Origin: Ciborinia camelliae
Taxonomy: Eukaryota > Ascomycota > Leotiomycetes > Helotiales > Sclerotiniaceae
Direction: 5' to 3'
Assembly (NCBI GenBank): GCA_025890175.1
Contig: JANPYM010000017.1
Coordinates: 108,659-172,658 of the forward strand
Length of the DNA: 64,000 nucleotides
How positions within the stretch are numbered: the first letter of the stretch is position 1; each line of letters starts with the position of its first letter. Below the pieces are notes generated by a model. That model did no database searches. It was not told the origin of the DNA and saw nothing but the letters and a program-made list of their open reading frames with translations. Position numbers and translations under genes: made by a program. Below, piece after piece: positions 6,950 through 62,756 of this stretch.

Positions 6950-8418
6950 ATGCCTTTATGCACCAAGTGTAAAAGCTTCCGGACCTGGATCACTTCGAGA
7001 GAGGTTAGACAAGCCTCGATGCCAAATTCGATGTCGGACAGTCTCGTTGACTCATATAAATTGATTTGTACCCACCATGATCAGTTATCCAATCTCGAAA
7101 AGTCGGCTGCGAGTGGCCGTCAGCTTTGTGAGATGTTAGCCAAGTTTCTTTCAAAACGCTATCCCGGATGTCCCGCCACCCACCTATTTTCGACGGATAG
7201 ACCGGACTTATATTTTAGGCTTCTTCCAAGAGGGAATGGAATGGTTTTATATGGGGGATTCTGTTTAGAGCTATATGTGCGCGGAGACGATCATGAAATT
7301 TGGCCTTCGACGTACCATCGAGACTCTGATCCACTATCATCGAATACTGTGGATATCGCAAAGCAATGGCTGAGCAGTGCACGGAAACGCATCCACAATG
7401 CCGCGATAGCTTAATCCAACATATGTTCCATCAAGGCTTACTGACGTCGGAATTCGTGATCCCAATGGCAACTTCACGGTGCCACGGCTGGTTGAAACGA
7501 AGGAAAGCTCAGGAGATCGACAGAATACCAAAATCGGGTCGCGGTACATAACCTTGAGTCACTGCTGGGGCGAATCCAAACATCTAGAAACGCATAAGCA
7601 AAACATTGATGAAATGAAAGTTGCAATCCCAGTCGAAAGTATGAACAGATGCTGTACGTGTCGCACGTGCTTTTCAGATGCGATATTTATGGATCGATTC
7701 TATTTGTATCATTCAAGACTCGGAGGATGATTGGAACGAAGAAGCTTCCAAAATGTGTTTCGTATATAGCAACACCGCTTTTAACATTGCAGCCGTGGCA
7801 GCAACAAATGGGGATGATGGGTTCCTATCGGATAGATTGGTTGTCAAACTTGGTCATGTGCTTCGTCCAGATGGGAAGACTATTGCGAGATCTTTGTGGA
7901 TCCGACCGTGCCTTCGGAATACCTGTCATGAGCGGAAAGATATCAAGTTGTTGAGATTTTCACTGTTCCGCAGAGCTTGGGTCCTCCAGGAAAACATTCT
8001 AGCGGCTCGGACATTGGTTTTCTGTCCAGTTGGTATGCATTTCCGTTGTCGTGTAAAACAAAGGTCGGACCAAAATCCCTTTGATGATGTCAAACATCTT
8101 GGTGTCTTCAATGGTATGGAGCATGCTGTATTCCCCAATCTATTAATGAAAAGTGCAATTTGCTCGAAGTATGTTATGGATGTGTAGTATCGACTATTGG
8201 CTACATATTCTTCCAAGGAAATGTCGTCCAGAAGGGACAAACTTCCAGTGATCGGAGGACTGGCCTTTCAGATTGGAACTGTCACGGGAGGCAAATATTT
8301 GGCGGGTCTTTGGGAGAAAGACTTTCCTCAAGCGCTTTGTTGGACAACTTTCAAAACTGCCCCAAACCTTTCACGGTTACTTTCGCTCCACACACACAGA
8401 CTGCTCCTTCAAGGGTAG
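6950..8418 (+). pseudogene. HET-domain (heterokaryon incompatibility) pseudogene
   Basis: HET blocks appear in the normal order but in different frames. From 6950 an N-terminal part runs to a stop near 7412. The block CTETHPQCRDSL continues in a second frame. YVPSRLTDVG through the signature YITLSHCWGESKH lies in a third frame. DAVRVARAFQMRYLWID and SICIIQD follow after a further shift near 7645. The downstream blocks RRAWVLQENILAARTL and KLPVIGGLA...YLAGLWEKDFPQALCW share one frame but are split by an in-frame TAG at 8185-8187. The C-terminal APSWSWAS-type block is not intact. HET proteins trigger non-self recognition cell death. No consensus introns remove the shifts, so I call it a decayed copy rather than a multi-exon gene. 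Confidence 0.85.
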
Positions 8419-18179: not shown

Positions 18180-19792
18180 ATGGCTTCAATATTACCAGGA
18201 CTGCGTAAAGCAGCTCCCAGATTATCTAGGGACTTCTTTATATGTCGACAATGTTTAAAACAACCTCAGCCATTATTACGACAGACGAAATTCCCCGCCA
18301 AATCCATATCATCTCGCAACATTCGATTCAATAGCAATACTGCTACAATCACTGAATCTGCGAATGGAGTCTCTCCACTCAGCTCATTGGCTGATTCATT
18401 GAGTAAACCGAGTCGATCAATAAGCAAACAATCATCACGCAGCAGATTTCCAGAAACAAGTTCGAAATCAGTGGGTTATTGGTTATTGGGAAGTGCTGCA
18501 AGTGTATTCGGAATTGTCGTATTTGGAGGTCTCACGAGATTGACAGAGTCTGGGTATGTGCAATATCATTGAAGGTCTTTCTTAATGCCATCCTTCATTC
18601 TTTTGGTCTGCCAGTTCTTTCAAATAGAGCATTTTACTAACTCGCCTCAAGCCTCAGTATTACGGAATGGAAGCCTGTTACCGGATCTCTTCCACCTCTA
18701 TCTGCTGCAGATTGGGAGAGCGAATTTAACCTATATCGCGCCTCGCCAGAGTTCAAGCTCTTAAATCCACATATGACAATGGAGGAATTCAAGAAGATAT
18801 ATTTCATGGAATGGTTCCATCGATTATGGGGTCGATTTATTGGACTCTCCTTCGTTGTCCCGGCTATTTATTTTGTGGCCCGCCGTAAAGTCTCCAAACC
18901 CATGGCCCTTCGTTTATTTGGAATCTCGGGACTCATTGGATGCCAAGGGGCTATTGGATGGTGGATGGTTAAGTCAGGATTAAAGGACGATCTTTTTGCC
19001 CCTGGGTCTCATCCCCGTGTTTCCCAATATAGGCTCACCACACATCTCGGTGCTGCATTCATATGTTATACCGCAATGCTCTGGAATGGACTCTCAATTC
19101 TTCGCGATCACCGTTTATTATTCAACTCTACTCCCGCTAAGGCGCATGCGCATCTTCTTCGCCTATCTTCACCCTCTTTATCCGTATTCCGGAAATCAGT
19201 TGCTGGTCTCGCTCTACTAGTTTTCACCACAGCTATGTCCGGTGGATTAGTGGCAGGCCTTGATGCAGGTCTTATTTACAACGAATTCCCTCGAATGGGT
19301 GTTGGGCTCACACCACCGAAATCCGAACTCTTTTCAGAATTTTACTCTCGAAGACCGGATCATAGTGATTTATGGTGGCGTAACATGCTCGAAAATCCCT
19401 CGACAGTACAACTAGACCATCGTATACTAGCCACTACATCTTTCACTGCCATTCTCGCCCTCTGGGCGTATTCACGCTTTAATCCTAGAGTCAAAGCTGC
19501 GCTTCCAAAGGCTGGGGCAAAGGGCATGTTGGGCGTAGTGCATCTTTTGATGATGCAGGTTACTTTGGGTATTAGTACTTTGATCTATTTAGTGCCCACT
19601 CCGCTTGCCTCTGCCCATCAAGCTGGAAGTCTGGCCTTGTTGACAGGTGTTGTGGTACTGGGAAGTAGAGTTTGGGTACCTAAAAGGACGATGGCTATTT
19701 TGAGAAGAGAGCTGGCAGCCCATAGTCCAAAAACCGCTCGGGTGAAGCATGTTGCAAGCCGAAGTGCACCGGCTGCTGCGAAAACTTCTTGA
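18180..19792 (+). CDS. COX15: Cytochrome c oxidase assembly protein COX15 (heme A synthase)
   Basis: Two exons, 18180..18553 and 18652..19792, encode 504 aa. The 98-nt intron has GTATGT and CTCAAG ends with a TACTAAC branch and restores [24 protein letters not shown], a COX15 signature. COX15 converts heme O to heme A in the mitochondrial inner membrane for cytochrome c oxidase. The N-terminus (residues 1-95) is Arg/Ser-rich with almost no acidic residues early on, as expected for a targeting peptide. Other family blocks are MEWFHRLWGRFIGLSF, GCQGAIGWWMVKSGL, RLTTHLGAAFICY, GGLVAGLDAGLIYNEFPRMG and QLDHRILATTSF, which supply the conserved heme-ligand histidines. Length and order match fungal COX15. 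The start at 18180 is chosen because upstream in-frame codons do not look like a targeting peptide. Confidence 0.97.
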
Positions 19793-20398: not shown

Positions 20399-20798
20399 TC
20401 ATTTTCGTTCGACGTCGGAGAACATTTGATATGCGTTTAATGCCTCCTTGGCGTCACTACGTCGTTCGATTTCAGAGAACATTTGATATGCGTTTAATGC
20501 CTCCTTGGCGTCACCACGTCGTTCGATGTCAGAGAACATTTGATATGCATTCAACGGCTCCTTGACATCACCACGCCTTGAAACATCCGCTCCCGACGAC
20601 GCCTCATCAATAAAAAATCCCCGAGCATGAGCAGCTTCTTTCACATCCCCTCTTGTGGCTGCCACATTCATGTCAGTATATGCAAAAATTGGAATAGAAG
20701 ATGGTGGAAATACCTAGGGAGTTGGCTTCAATTATTGGGGCTGCCATAACGGACATCGCAAGTGCGGCTGATACGAGAAAGAACGAGTGGAAATGCAT
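20399..20798 (-). CDS. Putative dikaritin-type RiPP precursor with Kex2-site repeats
   Basis: Two exons, complement(20399..20658, 20714..20798), encode 114 aa. The 55-nt intron has a GTATTT donor, a CTGAC branch and a GGCAG acceptor. Residues 1-20 form a signal peptide (FFLVSAALAMSVMAA). After a non-repeated spacer come three near-identical 19-residue repeats beginning at residues 56, 75 and 94, each opening with Arg-Arg and carrying the invariant block LNAYQMFS. The final pair is Arg-Lys at 113-114. Dibasic pairs are Kex2 sites in the secretory pathway. The layout (signal peptide, then identical Tyr-containing cores between dibasic sites) is that of fungal Kex2-processed precursors such as those for ustiloxins, phomopsins and epichloecyclins. 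Core limits are uncertain; Tyr 67, 86 and 105 are the likely modified residues. The gene is divergent to a UstYa-family gene 0.8 kb away. The mature product is not predicted here. Confidence 0.85.
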
Positions 20799-21602
20799 GC
20801 TGGTGATGGATTCGGATATGATGTAGGTTTGTTATTGATGGTGCTAACTGAAATAGATTGTTCTAAGACTACCTCGAGCTGGTTGATAATGTTGACAGCG
20901 GAGTTCGTAAGGTATTATATAAAGAAAGCCCTGATCCATGATGTATCTTCCAAGTGCAGAGTTGGGTGGCATTTTCAATCCATCTTTCCACTCTTCTTTC
21001 CTACTGTCCCGAGAACCATTTCACTCACTTCATCACAATGCTTGACCAAGCAGTGCTTCCATCCACCCTAGACGGAACCGAGAGGAGTGTGAATAATGTC
21101 GCAACCCCGATTAGTTCCCCTTCTAGACCCTTGGTATCTCGCTTGCTATTTCCTATTTTGCTTCTGCTGTCTGGTCTGCATTGCCGGCACTCGTGGTAAT
21201 AAGTAGTCTCGTGTCTATGTATTTACACGCTACATTATCGAGCCCGAACTAATATCTAGTCATTACCATCAAGCCAAGAATTTCGACCTTTCTAGGCCTT
21301 CCATCTATTGTACAAAGACCCGACCGAGTAGTCCGTTGTGATCTCTCGCAAGTTTTTATGGTGCCACTACGAAAGTGACGAGAAAAGCCGACATGCTGTA
21401 ATACGTGAAACGTGGAATGCAGTGCGTTTCTGTTGAGTGCATCTTTGAAAAATATCATGTGAAATTCGAGATTTGTACTACAAAAAAAATCAAACTCGGG
21501 TGCCATGGTTCTACAGCTTTACCTTCTGTCAAAGGAGCCATTGGATATTTCTCAGAGGTTTGAACTTCTCACTCCGACGTTCATCGAATCTATGTGGGTA
21601 TC
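20799..21602. promoter_or_regulatory. Bidirectional promoter region of the putative RiPP cluster
   Basis: About 800 bp between the divergent starts of the precursor (20798, -) and the first UstYa gene (21603, +). It includes one CGG-AA-CCG inverted triplet near 21073, of the form often bound by Zn2Cys6 dimers; a single occurrence is weak evidence. A 53-codon ORF from 21040 to 21199, with a hydrophobic segment (RLLFPILLLLSGL), might be a remnant of another membrane-anchored gene. Confidence 0.45.
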
Positions 21603-22631
21603 ATGTCAACTCTTCTCAAAATCCCAAGGTTCGAAACCCAAAAATTCATTGGGAAAGAGGGCTTTTCTCTCTTGGAACCAAACTTAGATATCGAAGATGA
21701 TCAAACTCATGAGCTTCTTACCCGTCGAAAGTTGTCCAGTTCAGTGGTTCTTCATATCATTCTGATAATTCTCTACACCATCATTGCTTTCACATTCGTC
21801 TATACCAAACCTTTTTGTAGCTCAATTTGTTCCCAAAAATCAGTAGTGTTTTGTAAGTTTCGACGTCATATTGCTAGGCATATCAAAACTGACTATGCAC
21901 AGCACCAGCTCAAGAGTCAGTATCTTACGAAAGCGTTACCATCAACACACCTCTCGAAGACAAAAATCCTTTCAAAGGAGAACCACGACAAGAATTAGAA
22001 GATGCATGGTACAACATCCTAAAATGTAATCTTACAACAACCAATCCCCAAACCAAGCACAACAATTCCCACTAAAACACAACCGCAGACCAAAACATCC
22101 GCGTAACAAAAGAAGAACTCGACCTCATCAACCGCACGTCGGTCCCGCTCAACGATGCCCAAGGCGGCTATCTCGCCAACCTCGACGTCTTCCACGAACT
22201 CCACTGTCTGAATATCATCCGCGAACACGTGTATCGCGAATTTTACCCCGACCAACATTCGCTCACATTACAGCGTCAGCATGTCGATCATTGCATCGAT
22301 ACTTTGCGCCAGACGGCCATGTGTCATGCCGATATTTCCCTCCTGACGTATACTTGGATCGATGATTATCGTTGGCCCTGGCCGAATTTCGATATCGCGC
22401 ATGAGTGTAGGAGTTGGGAGAAGGTGTTGGAGTGGACGAAGGGGAGATATGTGGAGAGGTTGCTGGGGCCTATTGTTAGGCATCCGGTTTTGGGTGGGTT
22501 TTCTTTCTTTCTATTTTTTTCTTTTTTTTTTCTTTTTTTTTACCTTGATGTTTGGTTGGTTTGTTACTTACTGACCTCTAAAAGGCGACTCGTGGAGAGA
22601 AGATGAAAAAAATGAAACTCATGGCGCGTGA
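21603..22631 (+). CDS. UstYa-family (DUF3328) oxidase-like protein 1
   Basis: Four exons, 21603..21852, 21903..22025, 22089..22493 and 22585..22631, encode 274 aa. The joins restore family blocks: PAQESVSYESVTINTP, GEPRQELEDAWYNIL-KYQNIRVTKEEL, then DVFHELHCLN and HVDHCIDTLRQTAMCHADI. A cytosolic N-terminus of about 45 residues precedes one transmembrane helix (47-67). The two HxxHC motifs that define the family lie at 160-164 and 189-193, and the typical C-terminal ...CRSWEKVLEW block is present. UstYa-type proteins carry out oxidative cyclisation of Tyr-containing precursor peptides in ustiloxin-like pathways. The last intron, with a long T-rich tract, is needed to end the protein DSWREDEKNETHGA; without it the frame runs into 35 low-complexity residues and stops at 22606. 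It is divergent to the precursor. Confidence 0.9.
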
Positions 22632-23652
22632 TGGTGAGTAAGAAGTCTGGAATTGGAAGATTTCATTAAAAGATGGAATGGGATTGGAACAGATACAGCT
22701 TGCCTGCAGTCAATTTTCATAGTCAATTTTCATAGTCAATTTTCATAGTCAATTTTCATAGTCAATTTTCATAGTCAATTTTCATAGTCAATTTTTCATG
22801 AATGCAATATGCAGAATAATAACGAATAATGAATATCGGGAACACAATGCAGAAATTGGAATAGTAATCAATCAATCAACTACTTTTTTTTTTCGTATTT
22901 TGGTTATACATGTATATACCATACATACCTATCATACATACCTAGGTACATATAATTCATATCATGCATTACCTACCTACCTTAGTACCCCCCCCCTTCT
23001 CTCTCTGCTACCTTAACCACCTACGAAAAAGATTTTTTGTTTCCCTTTCTATCCCGAGTATTCGCACGTTACAGGTAACAGTAGGTACTTACCTACCTGT
23101 CTATCCTTATGGACGGGAGTACATGTTAATATTACGATGTGATGTTAATGTTACGATGTGAGGTGATCAAGGGTATCACATACCTAGTATATATTGAACG
23201 GGTTGGAAGGAACTTGGATTGCCGAAAAGAAACTGCATATGGTGGCGGGTGGCAACGATTTACCCGGAAAGAGGGGAAGGTGAGGGAAGGTGCCAAGAAT
23301 ATATGTCTCTTGGCGCTTGGGGTGTCTAGTGTGCTATAGGAAGGTAGGACGCGGTTATTGAGGGAGGTAGGTACCTAGATAGTAGGTAGGGATAGGTAGG
23401 TGTCGATTTATCAGGACATTGGTTATCTCATCCGATAAATATCATATAGATATTTTTTGAGGGATTGAGATGAGATGGTGGTTGATTTTTATGTTTTGAG
23501 TTTTTGGGTTTGTGGTTTGTGTTTTGGGTTTTGTATGCGGATGATTTGATGTGATCGCGAGGTACAGAAAAAAGAAGAAAATCACGACTTGGAGATTGTC
23601 GATTTAGGAGAGAAATTTGAAGAGAGAGAAGAGAGAAAAAAAAGAAAGAAAA
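22632..23652. other. Intergenic between UstYa genes 1 and 2
   Basis: No gene seen. It contains the 13-bp tandem repeat (22708-22799) and AC/GGTA-rich low-complexity DNA with CCTACC and TAGGTAGG motifs. The last part (23580-23650) is a purine-rich leader just before the UstYa-2 start. Confidence 0.6.
22708..22799. repeat. 13-bp tandem repeat, seven copies
   Basis: Seven consecutive copies of AGTCAATTTTCAT. Six are exact, and the last has one extra T. The array starts 76 bp after the UstYa-1 stop, in its probable 3' untranslated region. Confidence 0.95.
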
Positions 23653-24636
23653 ATGTTAACAAGTCATCCATCCAAGAACAACCGATCCACCCCATCGCGT
23701 TTTTTCCTCTCATTCCTATTTCTGGGGATTATCGTTATCGTCACTACGCTTGTATATTTGGTACAAATATGGCCGTCACAATTCTCCCTTGAGGGTTTCT
23801 TCCCCTCGAACTCATACTCATTATCTTCCTCGGACAATCATGATTCGAAAACCCCACTCACGACCGAATCACTCAACCCCTCCGCTCCCTACAACACGAC
23901 GATGATTTTCGCCGAACATCCGGCGTATGAAAATCTCTCGCATGTTTTTGATTCGTTGTGGGATGGCTTGGTTCCCGCAAATGGGGGGTTTTTGTTGCGG
24001 GTGGGGGATGTTAAGGGAGGTGGGGAGGGGAAGGGGGATGGCGATGCCGATGCCGATTTGAAGAAACATAGGGTTGGCATTACGATGTTTCATAGTTTGC
24101 ATTGTTTGGGGATTATGAGGGGCGGTGTGCAGGAATTGTTTCGGGAGGTGGAGGGGCTTAGGAGAGGGGAGATTGGGAGGGAGGGAGTGGAGGGGGTGCA
24201 TGGGATGGGGAAGGGGAATGGTGAGATCGGGGAGAGAGGGAAGAGTGGAGGAGCGGGCCATGATTTTGGACATGCAGAGCATGGGGATCCGTTGCATTGG
24301 TTGCATTGTTTTGATTATTTGAGACAGGTATGACGCTTTCTTTCTTTTTGTGATGCTGCGTATAGAGAGGTGCTGTGAAGATATATCATGTTTCATATAT
24401 CAGATAGATGATGAGGGGTAGCAGATGAGATGGAGTGAAAGAGACAACTGAATGTACCCCGCTAATTCTGTACTGGGAAATTCTAGACCATCTTATGTAA
24501 TGCGGATGGAACGCTTGAACCACCTAGAGTTAATTCGAAGGGGAAGGAAAATGTAGATGGAATGATTGAGAGACAGTGTAGGGATCCAGATGAGTTATGG
24601 AGGTTGAGTGTTGAGTCTTTTGAAGAGGGGAATTAG
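23653..24636 (+). CDS. UstYa-family (DUF3328) oxidase-like protein 2
   Basis: Two exons, 23653..24327 and 24487..24636, encode 274 aa. The 159-nt intron sits within the second motif region and joins HWLHCFDYLRQ to TILCNADGTLEPP, the usual family continuation. One membrane helix lies at about 17-39. HSLHC is at 147-151 and HWLHC at 215-219. The distance between the motifs (63 residues) is much longer than in its neighbours (24 and 36) because of a Gly/Arg/Glu-rich insertion (about 168-212), and a shorter Gly/Asp-rich insertion lies at 121-137. The start is the first ATG of the frame; codons upstream are a purine-rich leader. The function is inferred from the family: cyclisation or oxidation of the precursor peptide. 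Confidence 0.88.
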
Positions 24637-24842
24637 TTGATTATGGGAGATGAAGAGAAATAATGATGGGGTAATTTTATACTGTATGGCTTCATGATGG
24701 CACTCAAATACAGATACATACTGGAAATCTGATGGAGTTTCTGGTTCAGTCTGGACAATACATTCTTACAAACAAGACTGATATTCAAATCATTCCAACA
24801 ATAATATGAGAAAGTTAATCTTTCCTGCCAGCAAAAAGGCAT

Positions 24843-25821
24843 TCACGCAATCCCCGAAAAATTGGCCGGGCTCCGATGCTCTCCCATCCACTTCAAAACA
24901 CCCTCCCAATTTCTACACATATGCGGGATTCCCCATCCATCAACCGAAAATGGAGCTTTCCCTTCCGGCACCTCCTCTGCCCATTCGATTGTCATATCTG
25001 CAGAACACATAATTGCTTGTCGTAAATAATCAAAACAATGACCCGTGTGTTCTCGATCGGATTCTTGGGCTGCTGCGTCGGATAGTTTCTCGTCGCCGTG
25101 GATGTGAGGGCGTGTTCCGAGAAGTGTGGAGTAGTAGGATTCGCGGATCACGCCCTGGGGATATTAGATGAGAGTTGGAACTGAAATAAAAACAATGGGG
25201 ATTGGAAATGAAGTGAAAGGCAATTTACAAGGCAGTGAAGTTGGTGGAATACTGAAACGGAATACCGATCTGGGCCGTTTAATGTTGGCAATCCAGGTCG
25301 AAGACCATATTTTTCGGGCTCTTCAACAAGTATGAAACCTCGTCCAGCTGTAAACTTTCCATCAGTAAATGGTTGACGAACCACTATTGCGGGTATGAGT
25401 TACCAGGCATCAAATTATCCCATGCCGCATCCGTGTCTGGACTTGGGGCCGCTTCAAAGATTTCGTATTTCTGAAAAGTAACGGTATGTGAGGAAACTAC
25501 TTGATATGAGTGCTTATGAACGGAACACGCTTGAGCCTGCATGAGACAAAAGAGGATCATCAAAAACTCACAATCCGGAGGAAATGTTCTCGGTATAGTC
25601 GAGTTGAAAATGTATGAAAATGTGGCATATATAAACAAGATTACAGCCAGTCCACTAAGAAGTCCCACCATTACCCCATACAAAAACTTTCGTTGCAAAG
25701 CGTTCGTTCCAGAATCTCCAAGGTATGGTGCTTCATCGTTCTCTATTTTAGGGTTCAGAAGTGAATGATATGGCAAAGACGTTCTGCTGGTACTGGGTTC
25801 GTACATGGGAACTTCTGGCAT
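24843..25821 (-). CDS. UstYa-family (DUF3328) oxidase-like protein 3
   Basis: Probably four exons, complement(24843..25154, 25229..25347, 25404..~25499, 25572..25821), about 258 aa. Introns 2 (56 nt, CTGAT branch) and 3 (74 nt) are well supported: they join WDNLMP-AGRGFILVEEP and VSVFHQLHCL-GVIRES. The acceptor of intron 1 is ambiguous; CAAG at 25500 or at 25530 (42-nt intron) both keep the frame, so the protein could be 10 residues longer. The first exon is 250 nt ending in phase 1, exactly as in UstYa-1, which supports common descent. One membrane helix lies near residues 47-69. HQLHC and HTGHC are separated by 36 residues, and the typical end CRNWEGVLKWMGEH is present. It is transcribed towards UstYa-2 (206 bp tail to tail), and its start faces the NYN gene. 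Confidence 0.88.
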
Positions 25822-26457: not shown

Positions 26458-27963
26458 ATGAGTCCTCGGGTCACTTGGAGAAGTACGATTCTCACCTCAT
26501 TGTCATCCCCCAACAAACCATTCCTCACTTTTCTATACCCGCGGTTTATCAATCGCAATGTAAAAAAAAACCAATTATCACAACACCTCTGCGAGTCGGC
26601 ACCTACATCCAAGGCTTCTTTGAATGAAATATGTAGTCGAGTACATCTTCCACAAGCTCCAAAAGCACTTGTTTTACCAATCTCGAGAATTTATGCTCGA
26701 TCAGTTCCGAGACGGGTTGTTTCTTCACGAGATCCAAAAGAACCTTATATTTCACCAACTCCACGTTCGGCTTTGACTTCACCACCCGACTCCCGCAAAT
26801 TGCCTCCTTTAATGGGACATCCAATGCCGAATTTCAAGCGGATGAGCCATCAACCAGAAATTATAAGCTCTACATCCGATTTAAGTCTGAAGCCAGTCTC
26901 GAGTCAGAAAAAGGTTGTAGTCCAGAGCCAGGGTAACACCTTTGTGCCAACACGGAAAGAAGGCATAAACAAGAATCGGGAAGAGACATCCAGGCCAGCA
27001 CAAGACAAAGTCATGGTTTTATGGGATCTCGATAACTTAAGGCCGGAAGATCCGCCTTATGATACAGCAATGTTGTTGAAACAATTTGCTGGCCTGTTCG
27101 GTGAAGTCATGGCAATCAAAGCCTTTGGAAATGATGTAACGTGTTCTTCGGTCAAATCAAATCGGAACACCTGTCCTGTCTGCGCTATGATCCGTGAGGA
27201 ATTAGAGGAACACTTTAAATCCTATGACGGCTTTTGCCAAGATGGAGAGGAGGGGAGGCTCCAGGGGAGCCAAAGAAGTCGTCAAAAACTCAAGAAATAT
27301 TTAGCGGCCTTTCATTATACAAATTTTCCCAGAGCTACATTAGAAAACGAGCTGAAAAGGGCTGGTGTGCACGTTGAACGTGTGAAGAGCACTCCTCAAG
27401 CTGCAGATGTAGCTTTAGAGCGTGAATGGCAACGAAATACGCGGGGAATGAATGCTTCATACGATTGGTTAATTTTGCTTTCGAATGATGCGGATTTTCG
27501 ACACATGTTGGAGAAGGCGAAGATGGAGGGGGTTGCAATTGTTATGGTGTGTAACAATCCCTCGATGGGTATCAAGGGAGACTTCTGGCTACCGTGGAAA
27601 GAATTGAGAGAGGGGCATGAAAGTTTAACGTTGTTGTCCAAGCAGGTTGTGAAGACTTCAACCTCGGGGCAAAGTAAGAACATAAGTTCAAGCGTAGTCT
27701 ACGAGCCCAAGAAAGTATATGGGAAACAAATGTTGACTCGGAAGGAAGGAGGGAGATTACTGAGCTGGGAAATGAGAAGTAAATTATTATGGGGTTTGAG
27801 TGATTCGGATTTTGCTAGTTTGATGAAGAGGGTATCGGAACGCTGGATTTTAAAGAATCACAAATCGCGGCGAAAGACCCGGATCGCTGGCTTCCAAAAA
27901 AGAATTGCAAAGCAATTGAAACGATTTCCATTGGGGCTCCAAATCGTTGAAGCAGAACAATAA
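26458..27963 (+). CDS. NYN (PIN-like) domain protein
   Basis: Single-exon 501-aa protein with an ATG at 26458. The NYN domain starts near residue 185 with VMVLWDLDNLRPEDPPYDTA, where D190, D192 and N193 match the acidic/Asn first motif of this nuclease fold. It ends around WLILLSNDADFRHMLEKAK with the second acidic motif, followed by VAIVMVCNN and GDFWLPWKEL. NYN domains are PIN-like RNases or RNA-binding modules. Between these lie an insertion with a CPVC pair and a Gln/Arg-rich loop. The first ~90 residues are basic with few acidic residues (RFINRNVKKNQ, RSVPRRVV), which would suit mitochondrial import, but this is inference. The C-terminal 100 residues are basic. It forms the right border of the RiPP cluster and is unlikely to belong to it. 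Confidence 0.8.
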   Translation: MSPRVTWRSTILTSLSSPNKPFLTFLYPRFINRNVKKNQLSQHLCESAPTSKASLNEICSRVHLPQAPKALVLPISRIYARSVPRRVVSSRDPKEPYISPTPRSALTSPPDSRKLPPLMGHPMPNFKRMSHQPEIISSTSDLSLKPVSSQKKVVVQSQGNTFVPTRKEGINKNREETSRPAQDKVMVLWDLDNLRPEDPPYDTAMLLKQFAGLFGEVMAIKAFGNDVTCSSVKSNRNTCPVCAMIREELEEHFKSYDGFCQDGEEGRLQGSQRSRQKLKKYLAAFHYTNFPRATLENELKRAGVHVERVKSTPQAADVALEREWQRNTRGMNASYDWLILLSNDADFRHMLEKAKMEGVAIVMVCNNPSMGIKGDFWLPWKELREGHESLTLLSKQVVKTSTSGQSKNISSSVVYEPKKVYGKQMLTRKEGGRLLSWEMRSKLLWGLSDSDFASLMKRVSERWILKNHKSRRKTRIAGFQKRIAKQLKRFPLGLQIVEAEQ

Positions 27964-47500: not shown

Positions 47501-48815
47501 TACTGGTGGTCTGTATGACAAGATGATAGGATGAGTATATATTTCAATATAGTTCTAATGCCAATGATAGAGGTATACGGTAAAAATAGAAGCAATAAAT
47601 CCATATTGGTTCGATATTATTGTCCTTAACCGTGGCGACTGAGGAAAGTCGCCAAGTGAAGTGGTCAAACAACACCTGCATTATATTTTTCGGTCAATAC
47701 CAGACATTAATGACTGATATACAATTGTTGGCTTGCTTGATCAACAATATCAAATACTCATTTGATATTTGAAATCATTATAAGAAAAATATAAAAAATT
47801 CGACAATTAAAAGTCAAGTAAAAGCAATAAGGATAGAAATCCCACATAGGCTGATTTCATGGGACGATATCTTAAGATGACTACAATAAAGATGCAACAA
47901 TTATTATATCAACGAGAAATTAACTAAGAGAAAAAAAGATCAAGGTCGACAATAACCAAACTATATTCTCAAAAGCATTGATCCAAAACTTTCAGAAAAT
48001 TGTTGTAGAGATCCAACAGAAACCTCTTTGATAGGAAGCTAGACAGCCCTCCGATAGGAAAGTTTCGATGAGAGTGTATCAAAACACTCCAATTTGAAAA
48101 CACCATTTGAGGGAATTTCTAAAATATCTGAGGCATTGGTGAAGTTTCAGAAAAATTGAAAGATAGAACAGTAAATGACATGTAAGGATCCAAATAAGAA
48201 CCATACATATAAATTCTACCACCTTTAACTTAATCTTTCAATCACTCAATAACGGACAGCCAATACACATTTAATTGAAAGATCTGCAGGTATTCCAACC
48301 GGTGTAAAACCAGAGAGACAATTTATCAAAATTCGACTGTATAAATAATAAATCTCCTCAAATACTCCACTTGGATGTCGGTAAAGATAGCCCTCAGAGC
48401 AGTTTGACTGTCACGGCTTGTCAATTGTTTGGGATTTTGAGTATGAGGCACGCTCATCGTAGTAGATTTATAATAGAAGTTAGGCAAGTTCCTCCTAACT
48501 TTTATCCCATTATTATGCTATGTTGTTTTGTTATCATTGTCATTGTTGAGTGCCCGCGGAGCGACAACTATGTCCTATGGCCTCAGGCATGTTTTACCAA
48601 ATCCCGCCCGGTCGTGTTCCAAGTTCTGTCGGCCACCGTACTTTGCTTACATCCCTCATCCTGATCAACGCAACTACTCCTCATGACAATGAGACTGCTT
48701 GATCTTATGGCTGATGGGTACTAGGCTTGTACTCAAAGGAAGGGTATGATACATCCCGAACTTAGGGGCTAGCTCATTCTTATACTGCAAGTGTCTAGGA
48801 GCTCGAGGGACGAAC
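44549..48815. other. Gene-sparse AT-rich interval
   Basis: About 4.3 kb with no supported gene after the HET remnant. From about 47550 to 48360 the sequence is very AT-rich. The last 150 bp precede the Zn2Cys6 regulator. Confidence 0.45.
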
Positions 48816-51503
48816 ATGGCTGCCTCAACTCCAGCCTCCGACAAGATTGCCACGATCTCGTCAAAGCTACGCAGCTGTGTGGTCTGTCGGAGTCGAAAGG
48901 TTCGTTGTGACAAATTGTCTCCGTGTTCCAATTGCCGTAGGGCAAATATTTCATGTGTTGTTCCCTCAACCGATCGACCTCCTCGATGGGCTCGACGTCT
49001 CGAGCGTTCTGGTAACTTGGGGGTAGCATCAAGTAGCGCAAATGCAACACAAAAAGTTGATCCTGAAGTAGGCCCAGTTATAGAGAGGTTACACAATCTC
49101 GAGAACCTGGTCAAGGAGCTTAGAGGCCAATTGGAGCAGGCCAATGCTACATCGGCGCATTTTAATGGAGACGAGTTGCCCGCACTTGATGCTTCTGAGA
49201 ACTCTCATTTCAATAGTAGTAATGATGTAGACCGCCAGACAGATGCCTCGTGTACCGCAGTAAGTACTTCTGAGGCACAGAACAAATTCGGAAGGCTGGT
49301 CCTCCAGGATGTCAATCGGAGCCGTTACATAAGCAGCGGTTTCTGGGCCCGCATGAACGACGAGGTGGGTCAACCGGCAGTATTCTGCGATCCCTATCAT
49401 ACAAAATTGACAGGTTACCTTTGTTGACACTATAGTAGATTGAGGGACTGCAAATGGAAACTCGTGGCTCTATGGACCGTGAGTCGGATATATCATCAGA
49501 AGATGGCGATGTCCTCGAGAAGATACAATCCACTTTGGAGCATGAACGTACTTCTTCAGATCGACACGGATTCTTATTTCAACATAATCTGAGTCGTTCC
49601 GATCCTGATCTCTCCAAATTGCGGCCTTTGCCATCACAGATACCCTTTCTTTTGAATGTGTACTCGGAAAATATACACGTCTTTATGAAAATTGTAGATA
49701 TTCCAATCATCACCAACATGATCCGTGATTTACGTAGCAATAAAAGTAGCAGCCTCTCACCAGCCAACGAGGCATTGATGTTCTCGATTTACTATGCTAC
49801 GGTAACATCGATGGAGGAAGATGACGTGAGTTTTATTTAGTCCGAACTTACCTCTTATGTCTCTTACTCACAATCCTATCTCACTCTAGATTCTGACAAA
49901 CTTTGGCTGCACGAAATCGGAGCTAAGTTTCAACTACCGGCTAGGTCTGGAACATTGTCTAGCGAAGGCCGATTTTCTCAGTGAGCCTGATATAACTCTG
50001 GTGCAAGCCATGGTTATCTTTCTCTTTCTTGTACGACGCCAAGAAAGTCCAAAATTCGTGTGGATGATGACTGGTTTAGTCATAAGGATGGCGCAGGCTC
50101 TAGGATTGCACCGGGATGGTTCCCATTTCCCCAATCTTACTCCCTATGAGGTTGAAACTCGTAGAAGAGTTTGGTGGGCAGTGTGTCTACTAGATTTGCG
50201 AGCATCAGAAGACCAAGGTACGGAGCTTACCACCACTAGCAGTAGTGTCGACACAAAGATTCCACTCAATATTGATGATGCCGACCTCAAGCCTCATACT
50301 ACACAGATGCCACCAGAGCGTCAGGGTGTGACTGATCTGACTCTCACGGTCGTTTCGGCAGAGATGTGCGATGTTATGAGGCGTTTGATGACTTCAGGTA
50401 TGGGAGAGGGCTCGTCAGGCGCTGAAAATCAAAATCTTCTGCTAAGCGACCTTTACGGGGCAGTCGATCGACGTTTCCTCCAATACAATACAGGGAGTAA
50501 AAACATTGCATCCTGGTGTCTTTCCACTTTAGCGCGCATGGTTGTGTCCAAGATGAACCTCATTCTTAATCTACCGGTGCTCTTCTCTTCTCCCAGCGAA
50601 AATCACTCGGAGAAAGTACGAACCGAACTACTAATCTCTGCAATAGAGGTGGCAGAGTACAATCATGCTCTCAATTCTGAGAAAGATTGCCAACAATGGA
50701 ATTGGCTCTTCCAGACTTGTACGCATTGGCATGCAATTGTTTATCTTTTGATCGAAACCTCGCGACGTCAGTGGTCGCCCATCGTCGAGCGAGCCTGGGC
50801 TGTCCTACATAGCAAATGGTTGATACCTCGACAGTTGACCAACCAGTCTGAAAGGGACAAAAACTCTCGGATTTGGGTACCTCTCCGAAAGCTTATGACT
50901 AAGACACGAAAACATCGTGTAGCAGAGCTTCAACGTCTGCGAGAGGATTCGTGGTCGGCGACACAACTAGAACTAGAAGATGGGCGTATACCTCTCCCAG
51001 CGAGTCCTGTACCATCTTATGATGGGAAGAGTGACAATATCTTTCGCGATCGTTGGCGTGAGCTTCTCGCAATACCCCAGGAAATAGAGAATGGGAAAAA
51101 GACTGGTGAGCCGCATACCTCAGTATCGATCACCGGGAATGCACCCAATACACCCCAACAGACCTTTAATTCTACATCGGGATGTGGAAATGGCGATTTA
51201 CGGCCCATCGACTCAAACAACCTTGTCGGCCAAAATCTGAACAGCATAAATAACTACCAAGCTCAGAGCCCTCAATGTCAAATTGGACGAAAGCAGACTG
51301 AAAATCTACTCCACGACGCAATGGACACAGTCCCGCAAAATTGGACGACCGGTCAACCTCTAGGTTCAAATACAATGTCATCTTCCTGGAGTGATGCTGA
51401 TCCGTCAATGGGCATCTTCGCTGATATGGACGCCAATATGGATTTGGATATGGATGTGAATTGGTATGAATGGATTGAATCGGCCCAAGTCATGGAACTT
51501 TAA
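48816..51503 (+). CDS. Zn(II)2Cys6 fungal-specific transcription factor
   Basis: Three exons, 48816..49364, 49439..49825 and 49890..51503, encode 849 aa. The introns are 74 and 64 nt and both junctions are in phase 0. The zinc cluster is C21-X2-C24-X6-C31-X5-C37-X2-C40-X6-C47 with basic residues between, followed by a linker and a short coiled-coil stretch (ERLHNLENLVKELRGQLEQ). The fungal-specific transcription factor domain occupies about residues 225-560, with the block FVWMMTGLVIRMAQALGLHRDG and RRRVWWAVCLLD. The C-terminal ~150 residues are Asn/Gln/Ser/Asp-rich (MDANMDLDMDVNW), a likely activation region. It is followed on the same strand, 0.77 kb on, by a dienelactone-hydrolase-family gene. 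It is 23 kb from the RiPP cluster, so a link to it is unsupported. Confidence 0.93.
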
Positions 51504-59206: not shown

Positions 59207-61519
59207 TCAGCGCAAACAAATCTCCTGCTCCTTCCAATCTGGCAATGTTAAACCCTGTCCATCCATCATTCCATGAATATAACATCCGCCCACTAACTTC
59301 CACTTCTCCAATTCTCTCCCCCTAACTCTCCCCTCTCCCCACTCCCTCAAAACAAATGGCACCCTACCTCCCAATACTAACGCCACCCTATCGCCCACCT
59401 CCGCGTCCAGTGGCACCAATCCAACATAACCTCCGCTCGTTCTACAAACCTTATAATACAACCCCGCACTAACTGCATTAAAATATCCTTCGTTCTCGGG
59501 CTCAAATAAGGCCATTCCCGGATCCATTCCTTGTCTTGGTTTGGCACCTGCAAAGCTTGCTAGTGCAAGGCCGTTGACGTGTTTTCGCCAGCTCGTGTAT
59601 TGTTTTGCATAATCTGGGGGAGCCAAGGAATCATTCGTGGATATTCTGTTCGCTATTAAGGTGCGCCACTTGACTTCTTCCATGCTCTCCCCGGTAGAGT
59701 ACTCGGAAATTGAATTGAAAATACCATCTGCGTCGATCAAGGTTCCTAGAATGGCGAGTGGCTCCAGACCGACCGATCGATCGAGAATGGGACCTATGCC
59801 CACACGGTCAATAGTATCGATCAAACCCCCTGCGACAATCAAATGATCGTTTTGAAGCCCACTGATTCTCACTCGCGGCTCCGAGGTGCCGGTGGCGTGG
59901 TAGATATCTTTTCCGCCTGCACCTAATGTTACACCTTTTGAGGTGGGAAGAATCGGCGTCGTCAAATTGCCTATCCAGGAAGGAATTTCTTCCTCGGGGC
60001 TGTCCAATATATGAATTTGTGATTCGGGATAAGATGGGGATGTGGGTCGAGAAACCTTGTACAAGATATCCATAGCATGTCCTTTCCGTACCAATACCGC
60101 AGCGTACCTACAAACAACCCATTTTAAGGATTTGCTATAGTCTGGCCTCAAAATCTCGCGCTCCTTATCAGTGAGATCATTAGCCAGACTCAAAAGAGCA
60201 AATAAACGATCTCTGGGATCGGTCGCTTCGCAAGATTCGGTTAAATCCATCATCGTCCAGAACGGTCCACCTTGCCACATCGTCTCTCTTACTGGAGGGA
60301 GAGGAAGCCCAAACATTCTACAATTTGTCTCGAGTGTTTCTCTGTCCCATATGTCTTCAAAGACCTGTGACGTTTCCGGAAATTGTCGAAACCAGCCCAT
60401 GAGTCCACTTAGATTGAGACCAGGAAGCTCAGGGAATAGATTATCGGCTTCTCTCAACATTCCTTCATCTAATTCGTGGATATCTTTCATTTGATACTGT
60501 AGATGTTCCATTTGATTTGCTGAACTCCGCATATGACATAGCTTCAACATCGACATTGCACCAGCGTTTGCTTCGTAAAACTCATTGATATCGAATGATT
60601 GCTCGGAAGATTCCGAGCTATAGCCGCCTCTTAATGTCAATCCCAAATCATTGATCTTGATTGCTGCCTCGAGAAAAACTCTCCAGTTTCTTTCCCAGTC
60701 TCCACAAATGATACTGACTTCCCTACTTAAGAGAAACTCCTGTATGATCCAAATCCTCTTAAACCACGACCTCCGCCAAAATGCTCGGAATGCTATCCAA
60801 CTACCACTTTTTCTACCAGGTAGACCAAAGCTGGTGAGAGAAGATGTTTCGATGATCTTAGCCTTCAGAGTATTGAAATTTTTCTTCCCAACTTTTTCAA
60901 TAAGTCCAATGGCGAGATCACTTCTATCGGCTTCTGGGCCGAGGTAAACTACCGTTTTGAAAGCAGATGAGTAAATCTTCGGCATAAGAAGAATCTGTTC
61001 GCTCTTTTCCTCATTATCTTGCTGATTGATACAAATGGCATCGATCCAAAGGACTCGGGATTTACTCAGGAGTCGAAGACGAGTCAAGGCCAATTTGAGG
61101 GATGTGGTTATTGGTATTGCACCTTCTTTGGTATGGAATTCGTGGTACATATTGGGACTTCCCCATGTATATGAAAGCGCTTCATACTCAGGTTTGCTGG
61201 CGAGTGAGACCTGGACTAAGCGTCCGGTAAGAGGCTCTGTCGATTTCCCTGGTGATAAATGAAGGAGACGCACATGGCCGGATTTGAGTCCTTGATAGAC
61301 AAATGAGAGTTTCTTTGGACTCTGTTTGAATAGAGATGAGGGGAAGAGCTCTTCTCGCATCAAATTTTCTAGATCATGGAGATTCGTCTCACTATCTCTC
61401 AAGTTCACGTGCTCCGGCTGAGAATCTTTCTTGAAAGGGTCACACGGCAACTCAGCAACCTGTCCGAACTCCTCCCTCATCAATCTTTCGAACCTATTCA
61501 GAAACAGCGCGTTATCCAT
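59207..61519 (-). CDS. HET-domain protein (heterokaryon incompatibility-like)
   Basis: Single-exon 770-aa protein, ATG at 61519. The HET domain begins near residue 111 with the signature EYEALSYTWGS and continues with RVLWIDAICINQQDNEEKSEQILLM and VVYLGPEADRSDLA, ending near RRSWFKRIWIIQEFLLSREVSIICG. Such domains act as death or non-self-recognition modules, signalling in vegetative incompatibility. The C-terminal two thirds contain DPRDRLFALLSLANDLTDKE, the usual HET-associated block, and a final GDRVALVLGGRVPFVLRE block, as in intact HET proteins. Residues 10-20 and 50-60 share an F/LMREE-containing repeat of unknown meaning. This copy looks functional, unlike the two decayed copies at 6950 and 44280. 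Confidence 0.93.
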   Translation of the reverse strand: MDNALFLNRFERLMREEFGQVAELPCDPFKKDSQPEHVNLRDSETNLHDLENLMREELFPSSLFKQSPKKLSFVYQGLKSGHVRLLHLSPGKSTEPLTGRLVQVSLASKPEYEALSYTWGSPNMYHEFHTKEGAIPITTSLKLALTRLRLLSKSRVLWIDAICINQQDNEEKSEQILLMPKIYSSAFKTVVYLGPEADRSDLAIGLIEKVGKKNFNTLKAKIIETSSLTSFGLPGRKSGSWIAFRAFWRRSWFKRIWIIQEFLLSREVSIICGDWERNWRVFLEAAIKINDLGLTLRGGYSSESSEQSFDINEFYEANAGAMSMLKLCHMRSSANQMEHLQYQMKDIHELDEGMLREADNLFPELPGLNLSGLMGWFRQFPETSQVFEDIWDRETLETNCRMFGLPLPPVRETMWQGGPFWTMMDLTESCEATDPRDRLFALLSLANDLTDKEREILRPDYSKSLKWVVCRYAAVLVRKGHAMDILYKVSRPTSPSYPESQIHILDSPEEEIPSWIGNLTTPILPTSKGVTLGAGGKDIYHATGTSEPRVRISGLQNDHLIVAGGLIDTIDRVGIGPILDRSVGLEPLAILGTLIDADGIFNSISEYSTGESMEEVKWRTLIANRISTNDSLAPPDYAKQYTSWRKHVNGLALASFAGAKPRQGMDPGMALFEPENEGYFNAVSAGLYYKVCRTSGGYVGLVPLDAEVGDRVALVLGGRVPFVLREWGEGRVRGRELEKWKLVGGCYIHGMMDGQGLTLPDWKEQEICLR

Positions 61520-62756
61520 AGATATGAATGTGAACTACGTTACTTCTTGGATTATAATCTTACAACACAGAACACAGAATCGTGAGGTGGTTCTCAGCCG
61601 CACTTGAAATTTTTGAAGGCGCTTTGCCGAAAGAAGCTAGGGAACGCCATGATTATGATATCTCAGCTTAAGAGATAAAACATCATCTATTCAAATATGA
61701 AAGCTACTCGAAGTGTGGAAATATTGTTGACGATAGAAGGAAGTCATAAAAAACTGATGACTAAGCAAAGGTCCATCTACATTACTGTAACCTGTATATA
61801 CCTTGGAACATTATATAAAGCATCAAATTTTACCTCTTTAGTCAAATTAAAATTAAGTTCCTCCAGCTATACATTTACCCTCATAACCGTGACAGGATGC
61901 CACTGAGAATTATATTCTTACTAATTACTACCTACTCTTGCTAGTATATCTGAATAGAATACGTTTCAGTCTCTATAAGTCCTGTCACGCTTCTATATAT
62001 ACTATACGCACCGTACGAATCTATTAAGTATGGGAATCTATTAACTGTATTAGTTGCGTACTTTCTTACTTATTATATATTTTTCTACTATTCCTACAAG
62101 CAATCCAACCCTATGCTTTCCACATACTCTAGTTAGAGTCATACTCTTAACATATTTATGTTTTATAAGATTTTAAATAACTCTAGTTATACATATTAGA
62201 AAATAGACTTGTTTCGAAGATAAAAGATATAAATTAAACATATAAAAAAAAGCTATTGATAAGTCATTTTCTAAGCTAATTCTATACCAATATTTTAAGC
62301 TAGTACTTATATAACTTGAAAAAGCCACCCCTGCTACTATGTCACGTTAACATATCGATTGGAATTGGCCCTAAATTCTAAAAGCAACATTAATAAAGAA
62401 ACGTCTGTATTATTAATAGAGGTGTACGGAAACTACTATAAGATATCTATATAATGTTCATACAATATGTTTGGAATAATTATATAACATAGTACAGGAA
62501 GCACATCCGGCTGCTGGATCGGTACGCATATATACGCACGATCCACAGCAGAGCATAGTTGAGAAAACCAGTCCAAATACAATACGATATAATATAGTAC
62601 GATTACGTCTTTACCACCCATGGTGATACCAACAGTATGAAAAATAACCGACGTTAAATATTAAAGCTCTTTGAGCTGTACCCCGAATAACAACCCTATG
62701 GCGAAGATTTCCCCATTTGCTCGGCCATCCATCGGTCCATCTCAAACTCGTGACGA
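61520..62756. other. AT-rich tract, possible RIP-mutated relic
   Basis: From about 61900 to 62640 the composition shifts to very high A+T with dense TA dinucleotides and frequent stops on both strands. That is what repeat-induced point mutation leaves in old transposon copies, but I find no terminal repeats or transposase motif. The first 300 bp are the promoter of the HET gene. Confidence 0.45.

Follow-up and report, generated by a model that had tools for sequence, protein, structure and literature searches.

A candidate KEP/UstYa (dikaritin-like) RiPP locus with three UstYa genes in Ciborinia camelliae

Introduction

Clusters that combine KEP and UstYa (DUF3328) genes are of a kind already widely catalogued, and the portion of the KEP survey used here reports that the DUF3328 count peaks at the position adjoining the KEP gene and that repeats contain Tyr in 65.6% of cases where DUF3328 accompanies the KEP and in 38.2% of cases otherwise (PMC7329392). 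According to the part of a second source that we drew on, the older definition of dikaritins also includes tyrosinase, methyltransferase and either peptidase or transporter genes, working clusters without one or more of these genes are known, and the broad definition takes DUF3328 as the class-defining enzyme (PMC12048977). In the DUF3328 hydroxylase CctR, each monomer holds two coppers through the HxxHC double motif, and activity is lost on mutation to alanine; copper-dependent oxidase activity is reported for CctR and, in the relevant part of the same paper, stated also for AprY and ApnU (PMC12435403).

In planta RNA-seq of C. camelliae exists (PMC7060139).

Here, we have analysed a 64-kb window (the whole stretch of DNA under study, 64,000 nucleotides) of Ciborinia camelliae. 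At 20399-25821 it holds a precursor gene and three UstYa/DUF3328 genes, with COX15 on one side and an NYN gene on the other. Precursor and DUF3328 enzymes thus lie in one cluster, as in the broad definition of dikaritins.

Results

Organization of the locus

The features, in window positions, are as follows.

18641..19792, plus strand: COX15 flank, the gene's long ORF; COX15-CtaA PF02628, 319.3 bits
20399..20658, minus strand: precursor exon 2, a degenerate first block and then three Kex2-type repeats; stop codon 20401-20399
20402..20572, minus strand: the three repeats, 57 bases or 19 residues each, with invariant LNAYQMFS
20572-20516, 20515-20459 and 20458-20402, minus strand: the individual repeats, 57 bases each
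20659..20713, minus strand: precursor intron, 55 bases, GT-AG (GTATTT..TGGCAG)
20714..20798, minus strand: precursor (KEP) exon 1, with ATG and putative signal peptide (the latter by inspection)
20799..21602, no strand: intergenic region between precursor and UstYa-1, 804 bases
21603..22631, plus strand: UstYa-1 (U1), exons 21603-21852, 21903-22025, 22089-22493 and 22585-22631; PF11807, 188.5 bits
23653..24636, plus strand: UstYa-2 (U2), exons 23653-24327 and 24487-24636; PF11807, 81.4 bits
24843..25821, minus strand: UstYa-3 (U3), exons 25821-25572, 25496-25404, 25347-25229 and 25154-24843; PF11807, 117.8 bits (provisional model)
26458..27963, plus strand: NYN-domain flank gene; PF01936, 28.9 bits (cut-off 24.2)

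The gene models agree with the original prediction of a divergent precursor/UstYa pair followed by two further UstYa genes within 5.5 kb, and both proposed boundary genes are backed by their Pfam matches. The precursor and U1 start 0.8 kb apart, and the intergenic region could possibly act as their common promoter.

The precursor and its repeats

The two exons encode a protein of 114 residues that starts MHFHSFFLVSAALAMSVMAAP. This start resembles a signal peptide by inspection; simple hydrophobicity is an unspecific guide, and since such a rule finds a signal-like start in 253 of 1000 stretches of 300 bases drawn at random from the window, the start by itself carries little weight.

The repeat array scores 272 in Tandem Repeats Finder with 90% matches. 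Its three 19-residue units are near-identical and split by dibasic Kex2 sites, as in a KEP, with 17 residues between the sites. That the core block is the same in all three repeats, as had been claimed, holds for the protein, while 5 of 10 flank positions differ; likewise, the Arg-Arg sites said to bound the repeats close the first and second, and the third ends with Arg-Lys at the C terminus. A scan for dibasic repeats returned this precursor as the sole match in the real window and no comparable ORF in 20 first-order Markov copies of it. Amino acids vary between repeats at 0 of 7 positions of NAYQMFS and 5 of 10 in the flanks (Fisher p 0.044, the core having been picked after the repeats were seen). 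The two codon differences within the core are both synonymous, and the core-flank contrast by synonymous and non-synonymous counts, which rests on few changes, is not significant (p 0.17).

Among 5.8 billion proteins, 168 of which shared words with the precursor, no homologue was found at E<=1, and hence no ustiloxin- or phomopsin-type precursor. In the C. camelliae genome the only matches were its own two exons, with no second copy. The strings NAYQMF, EALNAYQ, LNAYQ and NAYQMFS were not found in the literature searched. These searches agree with the proposal that LNAYQMFS is unlike known cores, and the peptide core looks new at the level of sequence. A literature search pairing Ciborinia with DUF3328 or ribosomal synthesis returned no report of a RiPP in this fungus.

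The three UstYa proteins

U1, U2 and U3 comprise 274, 274 and 257 residues and carry the motif pairs HELHC and HVDHC, HSLHC and HWLHC, and HQLHC and HTGHC (final U3 model), respectively. All three score above the curated PF11807 cut-off of 25 bits, U3 as its provisional model, and all their introns are GT-AG. One hydrophobic segment per protein was recognised by inspection as a membrane anchor, so that the anchor and both HxxHC motifs foreseen for each protein can be read directly in the gene models.

The public record of U1 (NHQ30_010872) is the same except for 12 residues at the donor of the first intron, and that of U3 (NHQ30_010873) lacks eight residues holding the first copper motif. The two locus tags are consecutive, and no C. 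camelliae record of U2 was among the matches listed.

The AlphaFold model of the public form of U1 places the motifs on helices 145-160 and 171-191, behind a helix at 46-66 that would be the membrane anchor. No solved structure is related to this form by sequence at E<=1, and a fold search with the model gave 56 matches at E<=10, the best at 1.4 and none at 0.001. The copper-site reading therefore rests on the motifs and the literature, from which U1, U2 and U3 look like membrane-anchored copper-type oxidases.

Distribution of the UstYa subfamilies

U1, U2 and U3 fall in three separate UstYa subfamilies, two or three of which share one contig in Sclerotinia nivalis, Cladobotryum, Colletotrichum eremochloae and Trichoderma barbatum. 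Among the named matches, those of Botrytis, Sclerotinia and Monilinia cover subfamilies 2 and 3, with none of subfamily 1. The locus had been called a self-contained unit, and this stands in part: U2 and U3 have relatives in those three genera, where none was named for U1. U1 shares 77-81% identity with its relative in Rutstroemia. Two published leads from related fungi were set aside: the relevant part of a report on a co-expressed putative RiPP cluster on Sclerotinia sclerotiorum chromosome 3 (PMC6941272) established no tie to the Ciborinia locus, and the DUF3328 mentions in the part of a Monilinia transcriptome study consulted (PMC5987419) were uninformative for it.

U2 has two to five histidines just before its second copper motif, a trait that a control showed to be a tendency and not an exclusive mark. 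It is possible, though doubtful, that U1, U2 and U3 make up an old, undescribed three-oxidase RiPP subclass of Leotiomycetes and Sordariomycetes, in which the enzymes were kept and the precursor core swapped, U2 perhaps performs a chemically distinct step and the LNAYQMFS product would be a new scaffold; the non-exclusive nature of the histidine-rich trait makes this slightly less likely.

Elsewhere in the C. camelliae genome, 6 of 33 other UstYa regions hold a KEP-like ORF, with dibasic repeats and a signal-like start nearby. These starts count for less, since by the same rule 680 of 1000 random 1000-base stretches also hold one.

Other genes of the window and the genome

A Pfam scan covered 26 other ORFs of the window, smaller exons being left out. 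The families found were COX15, NYN, HET (twice), NUP, RPEL, Zn2Cys6 and fungal transcription factor, together with PHD, TFIIS, SPOC and DUF7071 domains. For 16 of the 26 ORFs there was no family match. Among the 26 there was no P450, methyltransferase or tyrosinase domain and no recognised backbone enzyme of another pathway, and no reductase was recognised in the ORFs scanned. NUP (purine nucleoside permease, 768-1919), 18 kb off, is the sole transporter-named family.

Neither tyrosinase nor S41 peptidase has a match within the window. As these are genes of the older dikaritin definition, the original prediction of a complete minimal pathway is open to doubt, although working clusters can do without some of them. 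The genome has 12 tyrosinase matches, none on the contig of the locus, and four S41 peptidase matches, the nearest about 0.4 Mb away on the same contig. A single P_proprotein (Kex2-type) match was found in the genome.

Discussion

We consider it likely that the four genes form a KEP/UstYa (dikaritin-like) RiPP locus of C. camelliae that would yield an oxidised product from the Tyr-bearing block. Assignment to the Kex2-repeat-precursor and UstYa type is well supported by the repeats, the dibasic sites and the three PF11807 genes. The RiPP reading is strengthened by the repeats, the Markov null, the core-sparing changes and the adjacency of three PF11807 genes with double motifs, by the one Kex2-type match in the genome and the three subfamilies sharing contigs in other fungi, and by the survey's placing of DUF3328 beside KEPs and its Tyr-rich repeats, as far as the part used goes (PMC7329392). 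It is weakened by there being only three repeats, by the precursor having no homologue and the window no tyrosinase or S41 match, and by U2 and U3 relatives occurring in genera where U1 was not found.

The precursor anatomy, the dibasic sites and three intact-looking UstYa genes with both HxxHC motifs are read from the DNA itself. From these we infer cleavage and oxidation, and likewise any view of which residues are joined, how labour is split among the three oxidases and what ecological role the peptide has. The precursor would enter the secretory pathway, where a Kex2-type protease would cut after the Arg-Arg sites to give near-identical 17-residue peptides. In the lumen of this pathway the three UstYa oxidases may then act on the invariant Tyr-bearing block, the outcome being a dehydrogenated (cross-linked) or hydroxylated peptide. 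The product is most likely an oxidised peptide from this block and is probably cross-linked. For the three predicted 17-residue peptides the calculated [M+H]+ values are 1955.9055, 1915.8742 and 1917.8535, each falling by 2.0157 with every cross-link; for the core LNAYQMFS they are 973.4448 and, with one cross-link, 971.4291.

Some KEPs, those of mating factors among them, are known to give linear peptides, and cyclochlorotine, the substrate of CctR, is non-ribosomal. UstYa proteins also act in polyketide and non-ribosomal pathways, as stated in the part of the source used (PMC12048977), so their proximity is no proof of action on this peptide. Kex2 cleavage could accordingly be the only processing of the precursor, releasing plain linear peptides for secretion as signals or effectors, while the three UstYa proteins serve another substrate, and it would fit that 6120 of 7878 KEPs have no DUF3328 neighbour in the portion of the survey used (PMC7329392) and that Botrytis, Sclerotinia and Monilinia have U2/U3 relatives but yielded no match to U1 or the precursor. 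We think this unlikely, as the precursor lies next to U1 and diverges from it in a compact group with two more UstYa genes, the invariant block contains Tyr, and the 26 window ORFs (16 of them matching no family) revealed no backbone enzyme of another pathway.

It is less likely still that the locus is decaying, with a Sclerotiniaceae-wide UstYa-2/UstYa-3 pair beside a relic or silent precursor. The small number of repeats, the Arg-Lys end of the last, the degenerate first block, the consecutive U1 and U3 tags and the fact that neither the precursor nor U2 returned a C. camelliae record would be expected of decay; against it, none of the four reading frames is interrupted and their introns are GT-AG, U1 remains close to its Rutstroemia relative and, weakly, amino-acid changes spare the core. 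That the repeat ORF is a chance 57-base DNA repeat, open by accident and not a gene, is hardly credible: the precursor has no homologue or returned public protein and its signal-like start is unspecific, but a GT-AG intron joins the start-bearing exon in frame, six other UstYa regions show dibasic repeats close to a signal-like start, and the Markov copies gave no such ORF.

Should the proposed RiPP locus indeed produce its peptide, the camellia flower-blight fungus would have a defined RiPP, and work on what determines the reaction of a DUF3328 copper enzyme would gain a new core. With oxidase subfamilies that recur together in two fungal classes, it can be tested whether a single enzyme kit serves changing cores. 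Annotation can miss such loci, as the unreturned precursor and UstYa-2 proteins and the public UstYa-3 model without its first-copper-motif residues illustrate.

Compared with known systems, U1, U2 and U3 are predicted to share with CctR the membrane anchor and the HxxHC(x)nHxxHC copper motif described in the part of that paper used (PMC12435403); CctR is a cyclochlorotine hydroxylase, whereas the activity of U1-U3 is predicted from sequence. The ustiloxin and phomopsin clusters also combine a repeat precursor with several UstYa genes (2 and 5), but have a short Tyr/Ile core, absent from the Ciborinia block, according to the portion of the survey used (PMC7329392). Their repeats have 13 and 14 residues, compared with 17 between dibasic sites here, and the Ciborinia window differs from them in having no tyrosinase or S41 peptidase match. 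A tyrosinase is not known from the asperipin-2a cluster, from which the Ciborinia window differs in that no reductase was recognised in the ORFs scanned. That cluster is likewise small, with a repeat precursor and UstYa and, in the part of the source used, no peptidase gene (PMC12048977); it has one UstYa gene against three here, by the portion of the survey used (PMC7329392). The KEP and DUF3328 (ust-RiPS) clusters of that survey average 1.7 UstYa per accompanied KEP gene, compared with three in Ciborinia, whose repeat block had no match in our searches; as far as the part used describes them, they have signal peptides, which the start of the Ciborinia precursor resembles by inspection, and are like the Ciborinia locus in the Kex2-split repeats, the Tyr within the repeats and the adjoining DUF3328 genes (PMC7329392).

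Organization of the cluster and its precursor

In the camellia flower-blight fungus Ciborinia camelliae (Sclerotiniaceae), a candidate Kex2-processed repeat protein (KEP) is encoded beside three UstYa-family (DUF3328) genes, in an assembly of 46.2 Mb and 27 contigs.

Gene models of the cluster
20399-20798, minus strand: precursor, one 55-base intron
21603-22631, plus strand: UstYa-1, PF11807
23653-24636, plus strand: UstYa-2, PF11807
24843-25821, minus strand: UstYa-3, PF11807

The introns are 50-159 bases long and all GT-AG; splice sites were predicted from sequence with homologues as guide, exon 2 of UstYa-3 following the Monilinia protein P0084. UstYa-1 is identical to C. camelliae NHQ30_010872 except for 12 residues at the donor of the first intron, and UstYa-3 to NHQ30_010873 except for two splice differences. 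At 25229-25252 the public UstYa-3 model (P0083) uses an upstream GT and omits eight residues, VFHQLHCL, which contain the first HxxHC motif. The same stretch is absent from a Colletotrichum eremochloae relative (P0149), and the common gap reflects either annotation error in both or genuine alternative splicing.

COX15 and an NYN gene had been named as borders of the group, and both domains were recovered by Pfam profile match. A tandem array of AGTCAATTTTCAT (13-base unit, 6.8 copies, 100% matches) occupies 22708-22795, between UstYa-1 and UstYa-2. ORFs with HET (heterokaryon incompatibility) domains flank the locus on both sides (7645-8184, plus; 59210-61534, minus), and neighbouring ORFs with Zn2Cys6 and fungal transcription factor domains lie at 48750-51500 (plus), ~23 kb from the cluster.

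The precursor starts with a putative signal peptide, recognized by inspection, and its C-terminal end carries the units GDVKEPLNAYQMFSDIE-RR, GDAKEALNAYQMFSEIE-RR and SDAKEALNAYQMFSDVE-RK. The identical core seen earlier is confirmed: none of the seven positions of NAYQMFS varies from unit to unit, against 5 of 10 in the flanks (Fisher p 0.044, the core having been picked after the repeats had been seen). Two codons differ within NAYQMFS, both synonymously; synonymous and non-synonymous changes compared between core and flanks gave p 0.17. A preceding block beginning GDVKEA looks like a decayed repeat unit. Scanning for similar blocks separated by dibasic sites retrieved only the precursor from the real window and nothing from 20 Markov copies of it.

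UstYa enzymes and proposed pathway

As predicted, each UstYa protein belongs to PF11807 and has a single hydrophobic segment along with the two HxxHC motifs. The available text of PMC12435403 reports that in the DUF3328 hydroxylase CctR the double motif forms a two-copper centre, that alanine mutants lose activity and that the enzyme functions as a dimer. An AlphaFold model of the public form of UstYa-1 (46 sequences, mean pLDDT 77.3, pTM 0.65) predicts the motifs on two successive helices.

All 22 aligned UstYa-2 relatives have 2-5 histidines in the 20 residues preceding the second motif, with H193 (P0090 numbering) invariant and H197 nearly so. The counts there are 2, 3 and 2 in UstYa-1, UstYa-2 and UstYa-3, 0-3 in UstYa-1 relatives (n=46; one without two motifs) and 0-5, mostly 0 or 1, in 98 other listed matches of the joint UstYa-3 and UstYa-2 search (6 without two motifs). 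Most relatives of UstYa-1 and UstYa-3 have 0-2. Since these ranges overlap, histidine-richness is a tendency of the UstYa-2 subfamily and not an exclusive mark. These histidines could possibly be extra metal ligands.

With the precursor anatomy and enzyme motifs shown here, the most likely pathway would be secretion, Kex2 cleavage and UstYa oxidation. The signal peptide would bring the precursor into the secretory route, Kex2 would cut at Arg-Arg with trimming alongside, and one or more of the three enzymes would oxidise the Tyr-bearing block, perhaps linking Tyr to Met, to Phe or to an adjacent residue, which is a guess. The genome has one match to the Kex2-type domain P_proprotein. That Kex2 cleavage alone yields linear peptides, the UstYa enzymes acting on another substrate, is less probable than oxidation of the block.

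Relatives in other fungi

The UstYa-1 search returned 82 proteins at E<=0.001, the closest beyond Ciborinia being from Rutstroemia (77%) and Cladobotryum (56%); Botrytis, Sclerotinia and Monilinia were absent from its named matches (many further matches, mostly metagenomic, carry no species name). The joint search returned 821 proteins, of which the best 120 are considered; among the matches listed, relatives in Monilinia, Botrytis and Sclerotinia share 68-78% with UstYa-3 and 52-59% with UstYa-2. Within C. camelliae, the best match of the 33 other UstYa regions to any of the three over at least 100 residues was 37%, so the nearest relatives are in other fungi and are not paralogues.

In a tree of 52 rows (the three window proteins and 49 hand-picked from 202 listed matches), UstYa-1 falls within a 14-row clade (support 100/99) and UstYa-2 within a 17-row clade (100/100), each on a long stem that carries a long-branch warning. 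UstYa-3 joins its Sclerotiniaceae relatives (99/98); proteins of Cladobotryum, Trichoderma and Colletotrichum lie near it in a wider grouping without firm resolution.

Same-contig cases were chosen by eye among the listed matches of both searches, contigs being recognized by the length given for each match, and a shared contig means adjacency only where tags are consecutive.

UstYa subfamilies sharing a contig
C. camelliae: UstYa-1 and UstYa-3, consecutive tags 010872/010873, yet UstYa-2 lies between them in the window
Sclerotinia nivalis: UstYa-3 and UstYa-2, under the consecutive tags OCU04_007991 and OCU04_007992
Cladobotryum mycophilum: all three, contig of 5.6 Mb
Colletotrichum eremochloae: UstYa-1 and UstYa-3, contig of 310 kb
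Trichoderma barbatum: UstYa-2 and UstYa-3, contig of 502 kb

Against these stand Pestalotiopsis sp. NC0098 (UstYa-1-like and UstYa-2-like) and Hirsutella minnesotensis (UstYa-1-like and UstYa-3-like), with the proteins on separate contigs, and contigs of Colletotrichum falcatum, Delitschia and Aaosphaeria, each with two proteins of one class.

The UstYa-1 search also matched P0070, an annotated UstYa-like protein with both HxxHC motifs on a 96-Mb contig of the plant Mikania micrantha, through either contamination or transfer; the available text of PMC12435403 (2025) gives DUF3328 as known so far from fungi only.

Other candidate loci

All 58 PF11807 matches of the genome lie inside the window or the 33 other regions (20 of ~10 kb, 13 of ~5 kb). 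KEP-like ORFs occur in six of the latter, which would bring the candidate KEP/UstYa loci, window included, to seven.

KEP-like ORFs in other UstYa regions
L011:8133-8390, plus strand: dibasic repeats beside UstYa gene
L013:2064-2420, minus strand: two similar units plus weaker ones only
L017:3068-3229, minus strand: two similar units plus weaker ones only
L022:7254-7727, plus strand: beside UstYa gene
L024:6726-7148, plus strand: two exact-spaced units plus diverged ones
L028:9248-9883, plus strand: two exact-spaced units plus diverged ones

Their units include SADEDLIEQY, NLVSVDGTQGPQDTWYYTKAAKKD, DSGAIVVVDAPVVNEIE, EPDRSVVGTGSDRY, ASPNVETILPDPGEIGSPNSHNFAIG and GNGAVEIPNADGSSDAAELWK; six short strings from such units were not found in a literature text search. 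Each ORF has a signal-like start, inside it or at most 113 bases upstream of its 5' end, by a loose rule that random window stretches pass in 680/1000 (1000-base) or 253/1000 (300-base) cases.

Comparison with known dikaritin clusters

Tyrosinase profiles matched nowhere on the contig carrying the cluster and 12 times elsewhere in the genome; of four S41 peptidase matches in the genome, the nearest is ~0.4 Mb from the cluster. Our literature search found no report linking Ciborinia with DUF3328, and for Ciborinia and ribosomal synthesis only a general effector review. In a survey of 1461 strains, the accessible part of PMC7329392 counts 7878 KEPs, with DUF3328 neighbours for 1758 (22%), on average 1.7 each. 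As the available portion of PMC12048977 puts it, the older dikaritin definition required a tyrosinase, a methyltransferase and a peptidase or transporter, the newer one requires DUF3328, and functional dikaritin clusters without one or more of tyrosinase, methyltransferase and peptidase/transporter exist.
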